Positions 1,273-7,161 of a stretch of DNA of 8,805 nt are shown in pieces. Every line of letters begins with the position of its first letter. The stretch's first letter is position 1. A program made the position numbers and the translations under genes. The stretch covers positions 1 to 8,805 of the forward strand of contig DGBM01000315.1 in assembly GCA_002384765.1 (NCBI GenBank), given 5' to 3'. The notes under the pieces are model-generated. The model did no database searches, was not told the DNA's origin, and saw only the letters and a list, made by a program, of their open reading frames with translations. This stretch comes from Demequinaceae bacterium UBA4004. GTDB lineage: Bacteria; Actinomycetota; Actinomycetes; Actinomycetales; Demequinaceae.

Positions 1273-1494
1273 TTATTTGTAGCGGTAGACGATGCGCCCG
1301 CGGGACAGGTCATAAGGACTCAGCTCCACCACTACGCGGTCCTCCGGAAGGATCCGGATGTAGTGCTGGCGCATCTTGCCTGAGATGTGGGCTAGTACGA
1401 GGTGACCGTTCGTCAGTTCCACACGGAATGACGCGTTCGGCAACGCCTCAACTACTGAGCCTTCTACCTCAATGACGCCGTCTTTCTTGGCCAT
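1273..1494 (-). CDS. infA: Translation initiation factor IF-1
   Basis: This 73-residue protein is IF-1, an OB-fold factor that binds the 30S A site and helps IF-2 and IF-3 select the initiator tRNA. The sequence is colinear with actinobacterial IF-1 throughout: [12 protein letters not shown] at the start, [14 protein letters not shown] (19-31), the RNA-binding [15 protein letters not shown] (36-50) and the C-terminal [18 protein letters not shown]. No gap or extension is visible. The ATG at 1494 is the only start that gives the family N-terminus, yet its ribosome-binding site is poor: GGAG with only three intervening bases. A good sigma70-type promoter lies about 50 bp upstream, so infA probably begins a transcript continuing into rpmJ, rpsM, rpsK and rpoA. 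Confidence 0.98.
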
Positions 1495-1551: not shown

Positions 1552-1580
1552 AGAATACCTGAGATGTGGTGAAGTCTCAA
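1552..1580 (-). promoter_or_regulatory. Predicted housekeeping promoter of the infA-rpmJ-rpsM-rpsK-rpoA unit
   Basis: On the minus strand a -35 hexamer TTGAGA (1580-1575) and a -10 hexamer TATTCT (1557-1552) are separated by exactly 17 bases. They match the sigma70 consensus in 5 of 6 (TTGACA, one mismatch allowing for the A at the last place: T-T-G-A-g-A) and 4-5 of 6 positions (TATAAT versus TATtcT gives four). It is the best promoter-like sequence I found in the window and lies in a gene-free 140-bp gap with lower GC than its surroundings. Transcription would start near 1545, giving an untranslated leader of roughly 50 bases before infA. The call is from sequence only. Confidence 0.7.
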
Positions 1581-1634: not shown

Positions 1635-2048
1635 CTAGCGGTAGGCGTTGCGCAGACGCTGGACCGCTAGATCGGAGATCTGCTGATTGCGGTGGTCCGC
1701 GAGCGCCCTGACCACCGAGGACGGGGTGCGCACGTTGCGCACCAGCGCCTCAAGAACCGTGGTGTCGTGGTCGTGGCCCAAAGAGATGAGCGCGCCAGCG
1801 GGGCAATCGGTCCTGGCTGCGACCGCCGCGCGCACTCTCGCGTCGCGGTGCACCGCGAACGGAAGCAAGGCCGAACCCGTGAGTTCGGGGTCGAGGGCGC
1901 GAAGAACATCGTCGGATGCGTCGCGTGCCGGGGGAAGTACCACTATCGCTCTTTTCACCCATTCGACGGGGCGCCCGTCACCCCGTACGTTGTGCCCAGC
2001 GTAGGACGGATGCGTGTGCCATTTCGACCTTTGTGAGAAATTAGACAT
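1635..2048 (-). CDS. Unrecognised protein with 26-residue variant leucine-rich/HEAT-like repeats (second of pair)
   Basis: I cannot assign a function. The 137-residue frame has a helical repeat of 26 residues in its C-terminal half: V72 (in [14 protein letters not shown]), V98 ([14 protein letters not shown]) and I124 ([11 protein letters not shown]) occupy equivalent places, each preceded by a loop rich in Asp/His. The pattern resembles the leucine-rich repeat variant (LRV) family, which forms a curved solenoid, though no cysteine cluster is present. It shares period and pattern with the gene just upstream (2106-2687), suggesting duplication. The ATG at 2048 has no clear Shine-Dalgarno sequence, and codons 1-40 use more A/T in third position than the rest, so the true start may be internal, for example the GTG codons at 1958 or 1943. 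It ends 140 bp before infA. Confidence 0.7.
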
Positions 2049-2105
2049 TTCTGCGGCGGGGCGAACCCGGGCCGAGGAATCGGCGCCGTCGCGGGGACGA
2101 CAGTG

Positions 2106-2687
2106 CTATGACGTTGCGCTGATCGCCAGGCCGTGCGTGCCTGGCATGGGGGCATGCGCCAGCTCCATGGCGGCGCCGTGCGACGGGAAGCGCGACGGCC
2201 GCGCGATCGATTCCTCGGCGACCGCCGCGGTGGTGCCTCGCTCCCGCAGCTCGGGAAACCTCGCGTCCTCGTCTCGAGGGTCTTCGACGCGCGGCAATCG
2301 GATCGCGTCGTTGCGTCGCGCGGACGCCAGCCTGCGCACCTCGGAGCGGCGGTGACGTGTCAGGCCGTCAACGATCTCGAACGAGATGCCGGGGTTGGTG
2401 AGCAATGCGGTCAGGACCACCTGGCTTCTGTCCGAACTGAGGTCCTCAAGCACTGACCTCACGGTGTGGGCATTTGCCGCGAGCGCCGCGCGCACCTCGG
2501 TCGCACCGTCTTGGGCGAGCAACGCCTGAATCCCCAGGGGGACATCGTCGCGACTCGCGATCGTCTCGCGGACAACCCGGTTTCGAGACTGGGCGAGCAG
2601 AGCGATGTGAGTGCGGTGCAATCCGCGCGTCGCGGCGTCGAGCACCTCGACGCTCGCGCCCGGCGCCTGCGAGAATCCACGTGCCAT
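2106..2687 (-). CDS. Unrecognised protein with 26-residue variant leucine-rich/HEAT-like repeats (first of pair)
   Basis: Function unknown. The 193-residue protein contains at least four units of a 26-residue helical repeat, with equivalent valines at 39 (RVVRETIASRDDVP), 65 (EVRAALAANAHT), 91 (VVLTALLTNPGIS) and 117 (EVRRLASARR), between intervening leucine-rich helices such as LGIQALLAQD and RSVLEDLSSD. This is the pattern of the leucine-rich repeat variant (LRV) solenoids, known in general as protein-binding scaffolds. Residues from about 126 to 193 form a charged, probably disordered tail. No signal peptide, membrane segment or cysteine cluster is visible. The ATG at 2687 has AAGGGG seven bases upstream, a fair ribosome-binding site. 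It stands 230 bp after map and 57 bp before its apparent paralogue, in a place where adk-map-infA order is usually uninterrupted. Confidence 0.8.
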   Translation of the reverse strand: MARGFSQAPGASVEVLDAATRGLHRTHIALLAQSRNRVVRETIASRDDVPLGIQALLAQDGATEVRAALAANAHTVRSVLEDLSSDRSQVVLTALLTNPGISFEIVDGLTRHRRSEVRRLASARRNDAIRLPRVEDPRDEDARFPELRERGTTAAVAEESIARPSRFPSHGAAMELAHAPMPGTHGLAISATS

Positions 2688-2869
2688 GGTCGAGCCCCTT
2701 GGGTAGCCGACGGGGCCGTGGTGGCCGCGCCTCGCCTTTCGGTGGTCAGGCTGATGCCTTCCCCTCAGCGGATGCTCTAGTCATACATTTGGGACAAGTC
2801 GGTCCGCGACTTTTCGACCTCAATTGTGAGAATGTCCACACGGACCGCCGCGACATGCCTACTCAACAC

Positions 2870-2897
2870 CACATTGGGGGGCACACATTGGGGGGCA
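2870..2897. repeat. Perfect tandem duplication of a 14-bp G-run motif
   Basis: The 14-base string cacattggggggca occurs twice head to tail at 2870-2883 and 2884-2897 with no mismatch. Each copy carries a run of six G on the plus strand. Two more G-runs follow at 2905-2909 and 2921-2925, so the plus strand has four G-runs of five or six within 50 bases, a layout compatible with a long-loop G-quadruplex on the template strand of the operon. The repeat is seen directly; any structural role is inference. Confidence 0.85.
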
Positions 2898-2903
2898 GAG
2901 AGT

Positions 2904-2927
2904 TGGGGGCGCCCCCACTAGGGGGCG
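2904..2927 (-). promoter_or_regulatory. Mutually exclusive hairpins at the map stop codon
   Basis: Two inverted repeats share one arm. In the first, gggggcg (2921-2927) pairs with cgccccc (2910-2916), a 7-bp stem with a 4-base loop that contains part of the map TAG stop. In the second, 2904-2917 is a perfect 14-bp palindrome (tgggggcgccccca). Because the 2911-2916 segment is needed by both, the transcript can adopt only one at a time. No T-run follows, so it is not a standard terminator. A role in 3'-end formation or attenuation after map is inference. Confidence 0.5.
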
Positions 2928-3727
2928 ACGGGAGAAACCCGATACGCGGCCAACTCCGCGGCGCCCCCGTCATGAGCCGTCAACACCCAGATTCCGTCGT
3001 CGTGAATCGCAATGGAATGTTCCCAATGCGCGGCTCGCGACCCGTCTGCCGACACTACGGTCCAGTCGTCCTCGAGCACCGTGGACTCCCCCGTGCCCAC
3101 GACGAACATGGGCTCGATAGCTAGACACATGCCGGCTTTGACCTTGGGCTGACGCCCTCGCGTGCGGTAGTTGAGAACTTCGGGCGCCTGATGCATCGCC
3201 GTCCCGATGCCGTGCCCCACATAGCCCAGCAATGGGTGAAGTTGTGCGGCACCGGCAACGTCCTCAATCGCCCCCGCAACCTCGTCAAGCCGGTCCGCGG
3301 TCGCCAATGCGGCGATGCCCGCCCACAGTGCCACTCTGGTCTGTTCGACCAGGTGCGTGTCCTGGCCGCCACGGGGCGCACCGGCGATCACCGTCACCGC
3401 CGCGTCGCCATGCCACCCATCGACGATCGCTCCGCAGTCGATGGAGACGATGTCGCCGTCCTCGATGACCCGGGGCCCGGGTATCCCGTGGACCACCTCA
3501 TCATTCACCGAGACGCAACTGACTGCGGGAAAGCCGTAGTAGCCCAAGAAGTTCGATTCTGCGCCCGCCCCCTCGATCACACGGCGAGCGGCCGCATCCA
3601 CGTCAGCGGTGGTCGCCCCCACGACGGTGGCAGCCGACGCGGCTGCGAGGGCGTCGGCCACGATGCTGCCCGCGCGAGCCATGACCCGCATCTGGGGCCT
3701 GGTCTTGTACTCGACGCCGCGTGCCAC
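2918..3727 (-). CDS. map: Type I methionine aminopeptidase
   Basis: This 269-residue protein removes the initiator methionine from nascent proteins, using a two-metal centre in the pita-bread fold. All expected ligands and helpers are visible: H80 (in VVHGIPG), D97 (VSIDCG), D108 (GWHGDAA), H172 (GHGIGTAMHQAPE), H179, E205 (LAIEPM) and E236 (HWEHSIAI). The length fits the short cytosolic type I enzymes, with a modest C-terminal tail after about residue 250. The start is a GTG at 3727, six bases after the adk stop. It gives the family-like N-terminus VEYKTRPQMRVMARAG, but its AGGAG overlaps the adk TAG and leaves only three bases of spacing. The adk-map pair is standard in actinobacteria; the downstream side is unusual because two repeat-protein genes precede infA. 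Confidence 0.97.
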   Translation of the reverse strand: MARGVEYKTRPQMRVMARAGSIVADALAAASAATVVGATTADVDAAARRVIEGAGAESNFLGYYGFPAVSCVSVNDEVVHGIPGPRVIEDGDIVSIDCGAIVDGWHGDAAVTVIAGAPRGGQDTHLVEQTRVALWAGIAALATADRLDEVAGAIEDVAGAAQLHPLLGYVGHGIGTAMHQAPEVLNYRTRGRQPKVKAGMCLAIEPMFVVGTGESTVLEDDWTVVSADGSRAAHWEHSIAIHDDGIWVLTAHDGGAAELAAYRVSPVAP

Positions 3728-3733
3728 AGGCTC

Positions 3734-4300
3734 CTACCGGGCGCGCAGGGCGTCGACCAGGCGATCGGTGACGGCGTCGACTTCGCCGATGCCATCCACC
3801 TTCACCAGGAGTCCTTGACCCTCGTAGTAGGCCACGACGGGCGCGGTCGTCTCCGCGTAGACCGAGAGGCGCTTGCGAATGACGTCCTCGGTGTCGTCCA
3901 CCCGACCCTCGATCTCGGCGCGCTTGAGGAGCCTTCTGGCAATCTCGTCACTGTCTGCGACGAGCTCCACCACCGCATCGAGCGCGGCGCCGTGATCGGC
4001 GAGCATTCCGTCGAGTTCCACCGCCTGCTCGGGATTGCGCGGGTAGCCGTCCAGCAGGAACCCCGCCGTAACGTCGTGCTCCGCCAGACGGTCGCGCACC
4101 ATGTCATTGGTGACGTCGTCCGGCACCAACGCACCGTGGGACATGTACTCCTGCGCCTTACGACCCAACTCGGTCTCACCCTTCACGTTGGCACGGAAGA
4201 TGTCGCCGGTGGAAATAGCGGGCACATGGTAGGCGTCCGCCAGCCGCGCCGCTTGTGTTCCCTTGCCAGCCCCAGGGGGGCCCACGAGTACCAGACGCAT
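3734..4300 (-). CDS. adk: Adenylate kinase, short-LID form
   Basis: This 188-residue cytosolic enzyme interconverts ATP plus AMP and two ADP. The P-loop GPPGAGKGTQ is at residues 7-16, the AMP-binding region includes STGDIFRANV (30-39), and the conserved FLLDGYPRNPEQ is at 81-92. The lid is the short type (GRVDDTEDVIRKRL, 132-145) without a zinc-binding insertion, as in other actinobacterial adenylate kinases. The ATG at 4300 overlaps the secY TAA by one base (TAATG), which suggests translational coupling to secY; no strong ribosome-binding site precedes it. The longer upstream open frame in the same phase lies inside secY and is not coding. It lies in the usual secY-adk-map order. Identification is secure. 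Confidence 0.98.
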   Translation of the reverse strand: MRLVLVGPPGAGKGTQAARLADAYHVPAISTGDIFRANVKGETELGRKAQEYMSHGALVPDDVTNDMVRDRLAEHDVTAGFLLDGYPRNPEQAVELDGMLADHGAALDAVVELVADSDEIARRLLKRAEIEGRVDDTEDVIRKRLSVYAETTAPVVAYYEGQGLLVKVDGIGEVDAVTDRLVDALRAR

Positions 4301-5601
4301 TACTTCAAGAACCCTTCGTAGCGGCGTTGCTCCAACTGGGCCTGAATGCGCTTGACGGTGTCGAGACCCACACCCACGAGGATCAGGATCGTGACGCCAC
4401 CCAACGGTATGGACGTATTGAGTCCCAGGAACACGAGCGCCAGCATCGGCAACAAAGCGACGATTGCGAGGTAGATCGAGCCCGCCGCGGTGATGCGCGA
4501 GAGGACGTAATCGAGGTAGTCGGCCGTCGGCTGTCCGGGTCGGATGCCGGGAACGAAGCCACCGTACTTCTTCATGTTGTCGGCAACCTCGGTGGGGTTG
4601 AACGTGATCGCCGTGTAGAAGTAGGCGAAAAACACGATCAACAAGATGTAGAACGAAATGTGAAGCGGCGAGTCGGTGCGCGTCACGTTGTTCTGCAGCC
4701 AGACCACCCAGCTGGACGGGTTGTCGCCAGCGAACTGCACAATCACGTAGGGCAACTGCAGGAGCGACGACGCAAAGATCACGGGGATCACGCCCGCCAT
4801 GTTGATCTTCAGCGGGATATACGTGGAAGACCCACCGAGCATGCGGCGGCCGACCATACGCTTCGCGTACTGGACCGGAATGCGGCGCTGCGACTGCTCG
4901 ACGTAGACCACGGCTGCGATGACAGCGAAGATCACGAGCAGGATCACGATGGTGTTGCGCACGCGGTCCGAACTCTGCCAAATGGTGGTGATGGCGCCGG
5001 GGAACGACGACGCGACCGAGGTGAAGATCAAGAGCGACATGCCGTTGCCGATGCCCCGCTCGGTGATGCGCTCACCCATCCACATGATGAGCACGGTGCC
5101 CGCGGTCATGGTCAGCACCATCGTGGTGATCACGTTCCACGACTGGTCGGGAACGATCTCCGAAGGGCAACCGGGGAAGAACACACCGTTGCGGGCCATC
5201 GTCACGTACGAGGCCGACTGCAAAGCGGCGAACCCCACCGTGATGTAGCGGGTGTACTGAGTCAGCTTCGCCTGGCCGTCGGCGCCCTCCTTCTGGAGGG
5301 CTTCGAAGCGAGGAATGAGGACGCGCAGCAGCTGCACCATGATCGACGCGGTGATGTACGGCATGATGCCGAGCGCGAAGACCGAGAGCTGGAGCAGCGC
5401 TCCGCCGGAGAAGAGATTGAGGATCTGCAGCGGACCGCCGTCAGCACTGTTCGTCGAAATGCACTGCTGGACGTTGCCGTAGTCAACACCCGGGGTCGGC
5501 ACAGCCACGCCAAGTCGGTAGATCGCGAGAATACCGAGCGTGAAAAGAAGCTTCTTGCGCAGATCCGGTGTGCGGAACGCGCTGAGAAAGCCTGAAAGCA
5601 T
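4300..5601 (-). CDS. secY: Preprotein translocase subunit SecY
   Basis: This 433-residue integral membrane protein forms the channel of the Sec translocon, working with SecE/SecG, SecA and ribosomes. About ten hydrophobic segments can be picked out, beginning at roughly 18-36 and 70-92 and ending near 400-415. Family blocks include the start (LSGFLSAFRTPDLRKKLLFT), GERITERGIGNGMSLLIF (176-193), QYAKRMVGRRMLGGSSTYIP (244-263), the pore-lining GVIPVIFASSLLQLP (270-284) and the cytoplasmic-loop motif GGFVPGIRPGQPT (347-359), with its conserved arginine at 354 next to the SecA/ribosome contact. The length is typical. The ATG at 5601 has GGAGG four bases upstream. A 14-bp hairpin lies in the 56-bp gap after rplO, and the stop overlaps the adk start. 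Confidence 0.98.
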   Translation of the reverse strand: MLSGFLSAFRTPDLRKKLLFTLGILAIYRLGVAVPTPGVDYGNVQQCISTNSADGGPLQILNLFSGGALLQLSVFALGIMPYITASIMVQLLRVLIPRFEALQKEGADGQAKLTQYTRYITVGFAALQSASYVTMARNGVFFPGCPSEIVPDQSWNVITTMVLTMTAGTVLIMWMGERITERGIGNGMSLLIFTSVASSFPGAITTIWQSSDRVRNTIVILLVIFAVIAAVVYVEQSQRRIPVQYAKRMVGRRMLGGSSTYIPLKINMAGVIPVIFASSLLQLPYVIVQFAGDNPSSWVVWLQNNVTRTDSPLHISFYILLIVFFAYFYTAITFNPTEVADNMKKYGGFVPGIRPGQPTADYLDYVLSRITAAGSIYLAIVALLPMLALVFLGLNTSIPLGGVTILILVGVGLDTVKRIQAQLEQRRYEGFLK

Positions 5602-5620
5602 GAGTCCTCCGTTAAGGGGG

Positions 5621-5654
5621 CGTCGCGGGTCCGGCGCTTACCGGACCCGCGACG
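5621..5654 (-). promoter_or_regulatory. Strong hairpin in the rplO-secY gap
   Basis: A perfect 14-bp inverted repeat (5621-5634 against 5641-5654, arm cgtcgcgggtccgg) encloses a 6-base loop. It begins three bases after the rplO stop and ends about 10 bases before the secY Shine-Dalgarno sequence. The stem is very GC-rich and would be highly stable in the transcript. It is followed on the minus strand by CCCCCTTAACGG rather than a T-run, so it is not a consensus intrinsic terminator. A role as attenuator, processing site or 3'-end protector that lowers secY relative to the ribosomal genes is inference. Confidence 0.7.
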
Positions 5655-5657
5655 AGC

Positions 5658-6410
5658 CTAGCCCTCGTTGACGGTGCCGCCAGCCGCCTCGATCTTGGTC
5701 TTCGCGCTACGCGAAACCGCATCGGCGTCCACGAGGGTCACCTTCACCGCGATCTCGCCGTCGCCAAGCACCTTGACGGGCAGGTTGTTTCGAACCGCAC
5801 CCTTCTCGATCAGGTCGGCCTTGGTCACCTTGCCGCCCTTGGGGAACAGCTCGGCCAGCTGGTCGAGATTGACCACCTGGTAACGCACCTTGAACGGGCT
5901 CTTGAAGCCGCGCAACTTGGGGATCCGCATGTGCAGGGGCGTCTGACCGCCCTCGAACGCTGCAGGCACCTGGTAGCGAGCGCCCGTGCCCTTGGTACCG
6001 CGGCCGGCCGTCTTGCCCCGCTTGCCACCCTCACCGCGACCCACGCGGATCTTGGCAGCGTGTGAGCCTGGCGCGGGACGCAGGTGGTGCATCTTCAGCG
6101 TCGTCACCTTGGGCTGCTCCGCGCTGGGAGTCGCCTTAGCGGCGGCCGACTTCGCGGCGGCCTTGGTGGCCGCGGCCGACTTGGCCGTGGCCGTGGTCGC
6201 CTTGGCCGGAGCCGTCTCGGCAACAGCCTGCTTGGAAGCGGCCGCCTTGGCCGGAGCCTTGTCAGCAGCCGGCTTCTTCGCAGCCGTCGCCTTGGCAGCA
6301 GGCTTCTTGGCAGGTGCCTTGTCGGCAGCCGGCTTCTTCGCAGCCGTCGCCTTGGCAGCAGGCTTCTTGGCAGGCGCCTTCTTGGGCGTCGCCTCGTTTT
6401 CCTCGGCCAT
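5658..6410 (-). CDS. rplO: 50S ribosomal protein L15 with long Ala/Lys/Pro-rich N-terminal extension
   Basis: L15 is a late-assembling protein of the 50S subunit that binds 23S rRNA. Residues from about 102 to 250 form a normal L15: [20 protein letters not shown], the Gly/Arg-rich [18 protein letters not shown] (128-145), [13 protein letters not shown], and the C-terminal [20 protein letters not shown] block. Residues 1 to about 101 are an extra low-complexity extension made almost only of Ala, Lys, Pro, Thr and Ser, resembling histone H1 tails, including a 20-residue unit ([20 protein letters not shown]) repeated in tandem. The family norm is near 145-155 residues, so this is about 100 longer. 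I chose the ATG at 6410, which has a perfect AGGAGG seven bases upstream and overlaps the rpmD stop by one base; the GTG at 6413 is too close. The frame is open throughout, so the extension is translated with L15. Confidence 0.96.
6256..6374. repeat. 60-bp tandem duplication inside the L15 extension
   Basis: Positions 6256-6314 and 6316-6374 are identical over 59 bases except for one substitution (A at 6264, G at 6324), with a repeat period of exactly 60 bp. The duplication encodes two copies of a 20-residue Ala/Lys/Pro unit. Near-identity at the DNA level, including silent positions, indicates a recent duplication or ongoing homogenisation, and suggests the copy number may vary between strains. 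Confidence 0.9.
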
Positions 6411-6592
6411 CACTCGACCTCCTCCACGGTCACCAAGTGGTTGACCGCCTTGACCATCCCGCGAATCTCGGGACGGTCTTCCTTCACGACAATGTCACCA
6501 ACGCGCTTCAGACCGAGCGAGCGCAAGGTCTCGCGGTGCTGAGGCTTGGTGCCGATCTCCGAACGCTTCTGCGTCACCTTCAAGCGTGGCAT
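6410..6592 (-). CDS. rpmD: 50S ribosomal protein L30
   Basis: This 60-residue protein is L30, a small 50S protein with a ferredoxin-like fold that binds 23S rRNA. The sequence [20 protein letters not shown], then [38 protein letters not shown], follows the family along its whole length, with the typical SxIG...RxTLRxLGL and RGMxxxVxHLVxVEE elements, and the length is normal. The start at 6592 overlaps the rpsE TAA by one base (TAATG), fixing the start and implying coupling; there is no strong ribosome-binding site of its own. The end overlaps the rplO start by one base and carries the AGGAGG that serves rplO. The longer in-phase frame extending upstream to 6781 overlaps rpsE and is not real. 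Confidence 0.97.
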
Positions 6593-7161
6593 TACTTCAA
6601 CCCCGCAGCCTTGGCGCGCAGCATCGCTGCCGGCGCCACATCCTCGACGGGCAGGCCGCGACGGGCGGCGACAGCCTCCGGCTGCTCGAGACGCTTCAAC
6701 GCAGCCACAGTCGCGTGGACGATGTTGATCGCGTTCGAGGAGCCCAGCGACTTCGTCAACACGTCGTGGATGCCCGCGCACTCCAGCACGGCACGCACCG
6801 GGCCGCCGGCGATCACGCCGGTACCGGGCGATGCCGGACGTAGGAACACCACGCCGGCCGCGGCCTCACCCTGCACGATGTGCGGGATGGTGCCCTGAAT
6901 GCGGGGCACGCGGAAGAACGAACGCTTCGCCTCCTCGACACCCTTGGAGATAGCGGACGGCACCTCCTTGGCCTTTCCGTAGCCGACGCCGACGTTGCCT
7001 TCGCCATCGCCCACCACGACGAGCGCGGTGAAGCTAAAGCGTCGGCCGCCCTTGACCACTTTGGAAACGCGGTTGATGGTGACAACGCGCTCAATGAACT
7101 TGGACTCGGGCTCGTTGCCACGACGGTTGTTGTCGCGACGCCCGCTGTTGTTCTCAGCCAT
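6592..7161 (-). CDS. rpsE: 30S ribosomal protein S5
   Basis: S5 sits on the solvent side of the 30S subunit, helps hold the mRNA entry channel and contributes to decoding accuracy. The 189-residue product has a basic, probably disordered N-terminus ([16 protein letters not shown]), the dsRNA-binding-like S5 domain with [20 protein letters not shown] (21-40) and [20 protein letters not shown] (41-60), and the C-terminal domain with [19 protein letters not shown] (119-137) and [16 protein letters not shown]. The open frame extends up to 7299 inside rplR, but the ATG at 7161 is right: it gives the family N-terminus, starts 25 bp after the rplR stop, and has AAGGA five bases upstream, with a further GAGGAG. 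The stop overlaps rpmD by one base. Confidence 0.98.

Follow-up and report, generated by a model that had tools for sequence, protein, structure and literature searches.

What are the two small genes that separate map from infA in a contig of Demequinaceae bacterium UBA4004, and does their place in a ribosomal protein cluster carry meaning? The window, by which we mean the whole 8,805-nucleotide stretch analyzed (contig DGBM01000315.1), is the minus-strand end of an actinobacterial spc operon from Demequina. According to gene names assigned by reading, the order from the right end includes rpsH, rplF, rplR, rpsE, rplO, secY, adk, map, the two genes that we named A and B, infA, rpsM, and rpsK. 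A preliminary description had placed two same-strand open reading frames (ORFs) between map and infA, at 2687–2106 and 2048–1635 of the minus strand. Both are there, the start of the downstream one most likely lying at 1943. Together with two further groups, B′ and C, known from relatives, A and B form a lineage-specific set of paralogs of a known repeat-protein kind, the leucine-rich repeat variant (LRV), with a conserved role. We consider it rather probable that they belong to a set of small adaptors, specific to Demequinaceae, that are built on an LRV/HEAT-like alpha-solenoid and are probably located in the cytoplasm.

The 26-residue helical repeat described earlier stands up in both proteins. 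The valines and the isoleucine by which it had been recognized are present (V39, V65, V91, and V117 in the upstream protein; V72, V98, and I124 in the downstream one), and for neither A nor B did any of 1,000 shuffles equal the lag-26 self-score (BLOSUM62). When the best score of each shuffle over lags 5–60 was taken instead, it equalled this value in 11 of 1,000 shuffles for the A core and in 3 of 1,000 for B. The two proteins align at 35% over 81 aa (E 9e-7), in agreement with their proposed paralogy. Structure prediction, which had been suggested as a check, gave all-helical solenoids for both with AlphaFold2; the predicted local distance difference test (pLDDT) has block means of 93–98 over residues 11–120 of A and an overall value of 87.5 for B. 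As judged by reading without a predictor, neither protein has an evident membrane segment or export signal.

Comparison with known families specifies the kind of repeat. Structural knowledge of LRV proteins goes back to the 1990s (PDB entry 1lrv was released in 1997). Window B passes the Pfam cut-off for LRV (PF01816; 24.1 vs. 21.6 bits), its ortholog in L014 scores 26.5 bits, and 1lrv is the best Foldseek match of the B model (template modeling score 0.71 of the query, root-mean-square deviation 2.4, E 0.13). The membership in the LRV family that had been proposed for both genes therefore holds for B. Window A matches no Pfam family, three A orthologs reach 14.5–17.7 bits against the same LRV cut-off, and PF01816 is present in the precomputed annotation of some A homologs (e.g., P0043 and P0053). 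As window A falls below the cut-off, we filed it as an LRV-like paralog and not as a member. In 1lrv, alpha and 3-10 helices alternate, and the protein has an N-terminal cysteine cluster with a [4Fe-4S] center that is not part of the Pfam model. A and B share with it the 26-residue helical repeat, and their models are helical solenoids resembling 1lrv, handedness left aside. They differ from it in lacking the cysteine cluster (no cysteine in A and one in B, by reading), in the small size of B, only 102 aa, and in being free-standing genes, tandemly multiplied between map and infA.

Other repeat families are less close. LRV_2 (PF25591, cut-off 27) is not matched by window A or B. B′ of L006 passes it (29.3 bits), as do ORFs of the arrays in G222, G121, G209, and G213, and three A orthologs (20.8–25.3 bits) and B of L014 (12.4 bits) remain below it. 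The strongest LRV_2 match belongs to a different protein of 534 aa encoded away from the cluster (L120:79–1683, plus strand), in which DUF7937 (PF25592) is followed by a C-terminal LRV_2 domain. HEAT, alphaRep, and PP2A-A solenoids resemble the models in the overall curved stack of helix pairs, but their repeats are ~30–47 residues long, unlike the 26 residues of A and B; the HEAT profiles PF02985 and PF13646 give 18.4 bits (cut-off 23.5) and 15.0 bits (cut-off 27.7) with orthologs and no match with window A or B. DUF2336 (PF10098) weakly matches the repeat part of long B proteins, of B′, and of one A ortholog, below cut-off and over approximately the first quarter of the profile. The NCBIfam models bPGM, PGMB, BcsQ, and DdfA (for A, B, and the L014 orthologs) score far under their cut-offs and were taken as noise, as was a HalOD1 match of B. 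A sequence search of the PDB, made with A only, returned SKP1 at an E value of 1 or more.

We then asked how widely the cluster occurs. Our sample of the family to which D. sediminis belongs, here termed Demequinaceae, comprises 47 genomes. A pattern scan with one genome per species gave 19 loci (18 from Demequina), each with LRV ORFs between map and infA, and the regions of the other 28 genomes were added to these. The B profile found a match in 47 of 47 genomes, in some solely through A or C, and every one of them carries at least one LRV ORF in the map/adk–infA region. Map and infA flank the LRV ORFs on one contig in 44 of the 47. In one of these, G225 (L052), infA lies ~4.5 kb past the last LRV gene. 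In G228 a contig break separates map–A from C–infA. In G163 (L058) and G231 (L138), with genomes of 1.9 and 1.1 Mb, the spc cluster yielded no map and the order is adk–LRV–infA, which speaks against an obligatory tie between the LRV genes and map. Outside the family the site looks different. The order was sampled with 198 genomes, of which 14 fall in the family and 184 outside it. From 60 of the 184 we obtained one infA-upstream region each, and none of these contains an LRV match by tblastn or with the A, B, and C profiles; two of the regions are clipped by contig ends (L115, 719 bp; L091, 2,668 bp). With the combined profile A5, an LRV-like protein was found somewhere in at least 27 of the 184 non-family genomes, in 10 of these on a contig other than that of infA and in 17 on the same contig at least 12.9 kb away; a class-wide sample gave a match in at least 28 of 296 genomes. 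The synteny survey called for in the preliminary description thus sets 47 of 47 family genomes against 0 of 60 outgroup regions. An open-access literature search found no account of this map–infA LRV cluster of Demequinaceae.

The number of genes at the site varies. After 13 loci were dropped as second copies from the copy count and the tree, 135 LRV ORFs remained in 47 distinct loci (the window and 46 genomes; ORFs above 60 bits; G228 counted as single-copy and G231, with two copies, outside the count). One copy is present in 4 loci, two in 10, three in 24, four in 7, five in 1, and six in 1, so that the "pair" first described is one state in a range of one to six, in which three is the commonest. 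A-C-B is the most frequent order; the window lacks C. Some loci have additional content. In L042 (G218), ~4.8 kb of unrelated genes lie between A and C (~1936–6730 of the locus), and by eye they resemble genes for a SipW-type signal peptidase and for secreted proteins of the TasA kind. Elsewhere in Demequina genomes (L130:2789–3226, plus strand; L134:2706–3146, minus strand), one more solitary LRV protein, of ~145 aa, is encoded next to genes that read by eye as xseA and ispH.

In a tree of the 135 cores, A, B, B′, and C form clades with supports of 0.41, 0.88, 0.90, and 0.98, respectively, and two leaves are misplaced; B′ was labeled by score range, and the groups tested by the tree had been labeled with the profiles themselves. 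As the groups recur across the family, we infer that the paralogs predate its radiation, the A clade being weakly supported. In orthologous pairwise comparisons, the ratio of nonsynonymous to synonymous substitution rates (dN/dS) was 0.03–0.26 for B, 0.11–0.30 for A, and 0.12–0.28 for C, compared with 0.03–0.16 for map; for infA, dN was 0 in 14 of 14 pairs. Rows in which the profile had taken different paralogs or no true C were set aside (A: L001–L049, 0.50, and WIN–L049, 0.38, where WIN denotes the window; C: L010–L011, 0.37, L001–L049, 0.52, WIN–L001, 0.29, and WIN–L049, 0.43). A and C evolve faster than map, and B about as slowly as map or somewhat faster. The codon conservation expected of real genes in relatives is thus observed, and these ratios show purifying selection on A, B, and C.

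The coordinates are collected in table 1. The B ORF first reported, of 137 aa, is 35 codons longer than the version starting at GTG 1943. The latter is most likely the true start, because most family members start ~101–106 residues from the stop and an AAAAGAG sequence lies five bases upstream; the long start is also predicted in a few close relatives (P0071 and P0072). The closest protein to A is P0001 of Demequina sp. (99% identical), and window A scores 225 bits against the A profile. An Rfam scan of the window gave zero matches.

Table 1. Position of the LRV genes, their parts and neighbors in the window, and of LRV genes linked to rplM in other genomes
Feature	Position	Strand	Description
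Gene A	2106..2687	-	193 aa; LRV/HEAT-like alpha-solenoid core, then conserved PELRER motif, then low-confidence tail
Repeat core of A	2286..2630	-	~residues 20–134; 26-residue period
PELRER motif of A	2238..2255	-	residues 145–150
Gene B	1635..1943	-	102 aa from favored GTG start; short LRV protein
infA promoter-like site	1552..1580	-	TTGAGA-17-TATTCT, between B and infA
infA (IF-1)	1273..1494	-	flanking gene; protein 98.6–100% identical across 19 loci
map (methionine aminopeptidase)	2918..3727	-	flanking gene
rplM-linked LRV, L135	L135:4877-3080	-	rplM and rpsI neighbors confirmed in L135 only
rplM-linked LRV, 13 further genomes	G009, G025, G041, G057, G072, G100, G114, G128, G142, G156, G170, G184, G196		

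The promoter-like site of infA is the only one between 1200 and 3000, where 0.1 are expected, and lies 57 nt before the gene. Under a looser rule, 44 of 45 distinct sequences from the family have the same or a related site, often TTGAGA-17-TATAGT and in two cases with a spacer of 18, at 54–61 nt before infA; among 30 outgroup sequences, with one best site each, none is at this distance. Because this conserved site precedes infA, the LRV genes are probably upstream of infA's own start. It makes the location look like a boundary between transcription units. Other relatives have unrelated genes there. Upstream of A, no promoter-like site was found in any row, the start being misplaced in WIN, L023, and L054 and not set in L001, L048, and L059; a looser pattern matched in 6 of 44 rows. 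By eye, a noncoding block GTTAC ... GCAA ... TAGCGT ~45–55 nt before the A start looks conserved in many Demequina loci (e.g., L002, L004, L014, and L017) and is not evident in the window; it is possibly a promoter or regulator site.

The preliminary description had seen an insertion into one of the most conserved operons. This is too strong, given the promoter-like site before infA and an outgroup in which map directly precedes infA (154–362 bp) in 27 of 60 regions. In 10 it lies 1.45–3.4 kb away, with a coding-like ORF in between in 9, and in 23 it was not found within the examined stretch. In three outgroup loci (L076, L081, and L105), the intervening gene reads by eye like rlmN, a radical-SAM rRNA methyltransferase gene. 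The position of the LRV genes is thus less extraordinary than had been held. This leads to the alternative that survives best, to which we give about even chances: by chance, an ancestral LRV gene settled at a permissive unit boundary and was duplicated in tandem, its function being unrelated to that of its neighbors. Of the 37 other genomes in which map lies upstream, 10 show a long map–infA gap; these are consistent with such permissiveness, as are the unrelated genes within the L042 cluster. The further LRV genes elsewhere in the same genomes also favor this alternative. However, all 47 family genomes have the cluster at this site, though its content and copy number vary. A location beside operons expected to be strongly expressed may be all that the position means.

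Alternatively, the position could reflect function. LRV proteins would then be translation-linked factors with a role in assembly or maturation, and their binding partner would be the ribosome, IF-1, nascent chains, or methionine aminopeptidase. The position is fixed across the family, and the C and B cores are basic (median isoelectric points of 10.7 and 10.0). An independent lead comes from distant genomes. In 14 of 14 distant genomes picked for LRV hits and small size (0.8–2.7 Mb), an orthologous LRV protein, with open frames of 213–295 aa, is encoded upstream of rplM on the same strand, at 144–254 bp in seven and at 2.6–6.2 kb in the other seven. Our guess is that this group belongs to Bifidobacteriaceae or similar bacteria. 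Nevertheless, its similarity to the Demequina set is remote (hhalign probability 66%), and location by itself is weak evidence. Moreover, a separate promoter-like site for infA follows the LRV genes, these genes stay in L058 and L138 where map is missing, and the A core is acidic (median isoelectric point of 6.1). A translation link therefore appears unlikely to us. More doubtful still is its broader form, in which small LRV solenoids, the map–infA set and the single rplM–rpsI gene alike, would constitute a class of translation-linked adaptors that has been overlooked in Actinomycetales and whose solenoid and conserved tail motifs would contact ribosomal proteins, an initiation factor, or nascent chains.

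Variation in copy number and the insertion inside one cluster might also recall a phage-defence or conflict module with variable solenoid receptors. Yet B is strongly conserved, the cluster is present in all family genomes, and no toxin, nuclease, or ATPase partner was noticed among the cluster ORFs read. PADLOC, run on five proteins, gave as its sole match PDC-S70 for B, at a weak E of 0.012. Such a role is very improbable. That the ORFs are spurious or decaying remnants in GC-rich DNA, as the inflated start of B and the many overlapping GC-rich ORFs of the window could suggest, is hardly credible in view of dN/dS values well below 1, the 70, 94, and 159 homologs returned by the A, B, and a third search, the 26-residue period, the confident models, and a G+C content at third codon positions of 0.81 in A and 0.79 in B.

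We therefore return to the favored reading of small solenoid adaptors. Each solenoid would bind either a short peptide or another protein on its concave face. Conserved motifs in the flexible tails (PELRDR and APVRGF in A, APRP in C, and PFRGF in long B) could serve as docking sites, perhaps for one another or for a partner in common. In a 68-row alignment of A, P145 and E146 of the PELRER motif are invariant and L147, R148, and R150 nearly so. A PEL..R type motif occurs in 30 of 49 A ORFs and an APVRGF-like one in 27 of 49, and 28 of the 34 C ORFs carry APRP. A low-complexity N-terminal extension of ~200–420 aa is present on B in five genomes (L020, L036, L041, L043, and L057); it opens with a PFRGF-type motif, an echo of the APVRGF tail of A. 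The conserved tail motifs and the long-B extension fit peptide-docking adaptors.

To our knowledge, LRV proteins have no settled function. Every family genome searched, cultured type strains included, keeps LRV genes at one spot, and this offers a tractable route to the partners of LRV proteins. If the link to the ribosomal operon proved functional, these proteins would represent a new class of factors in a very well studied process.
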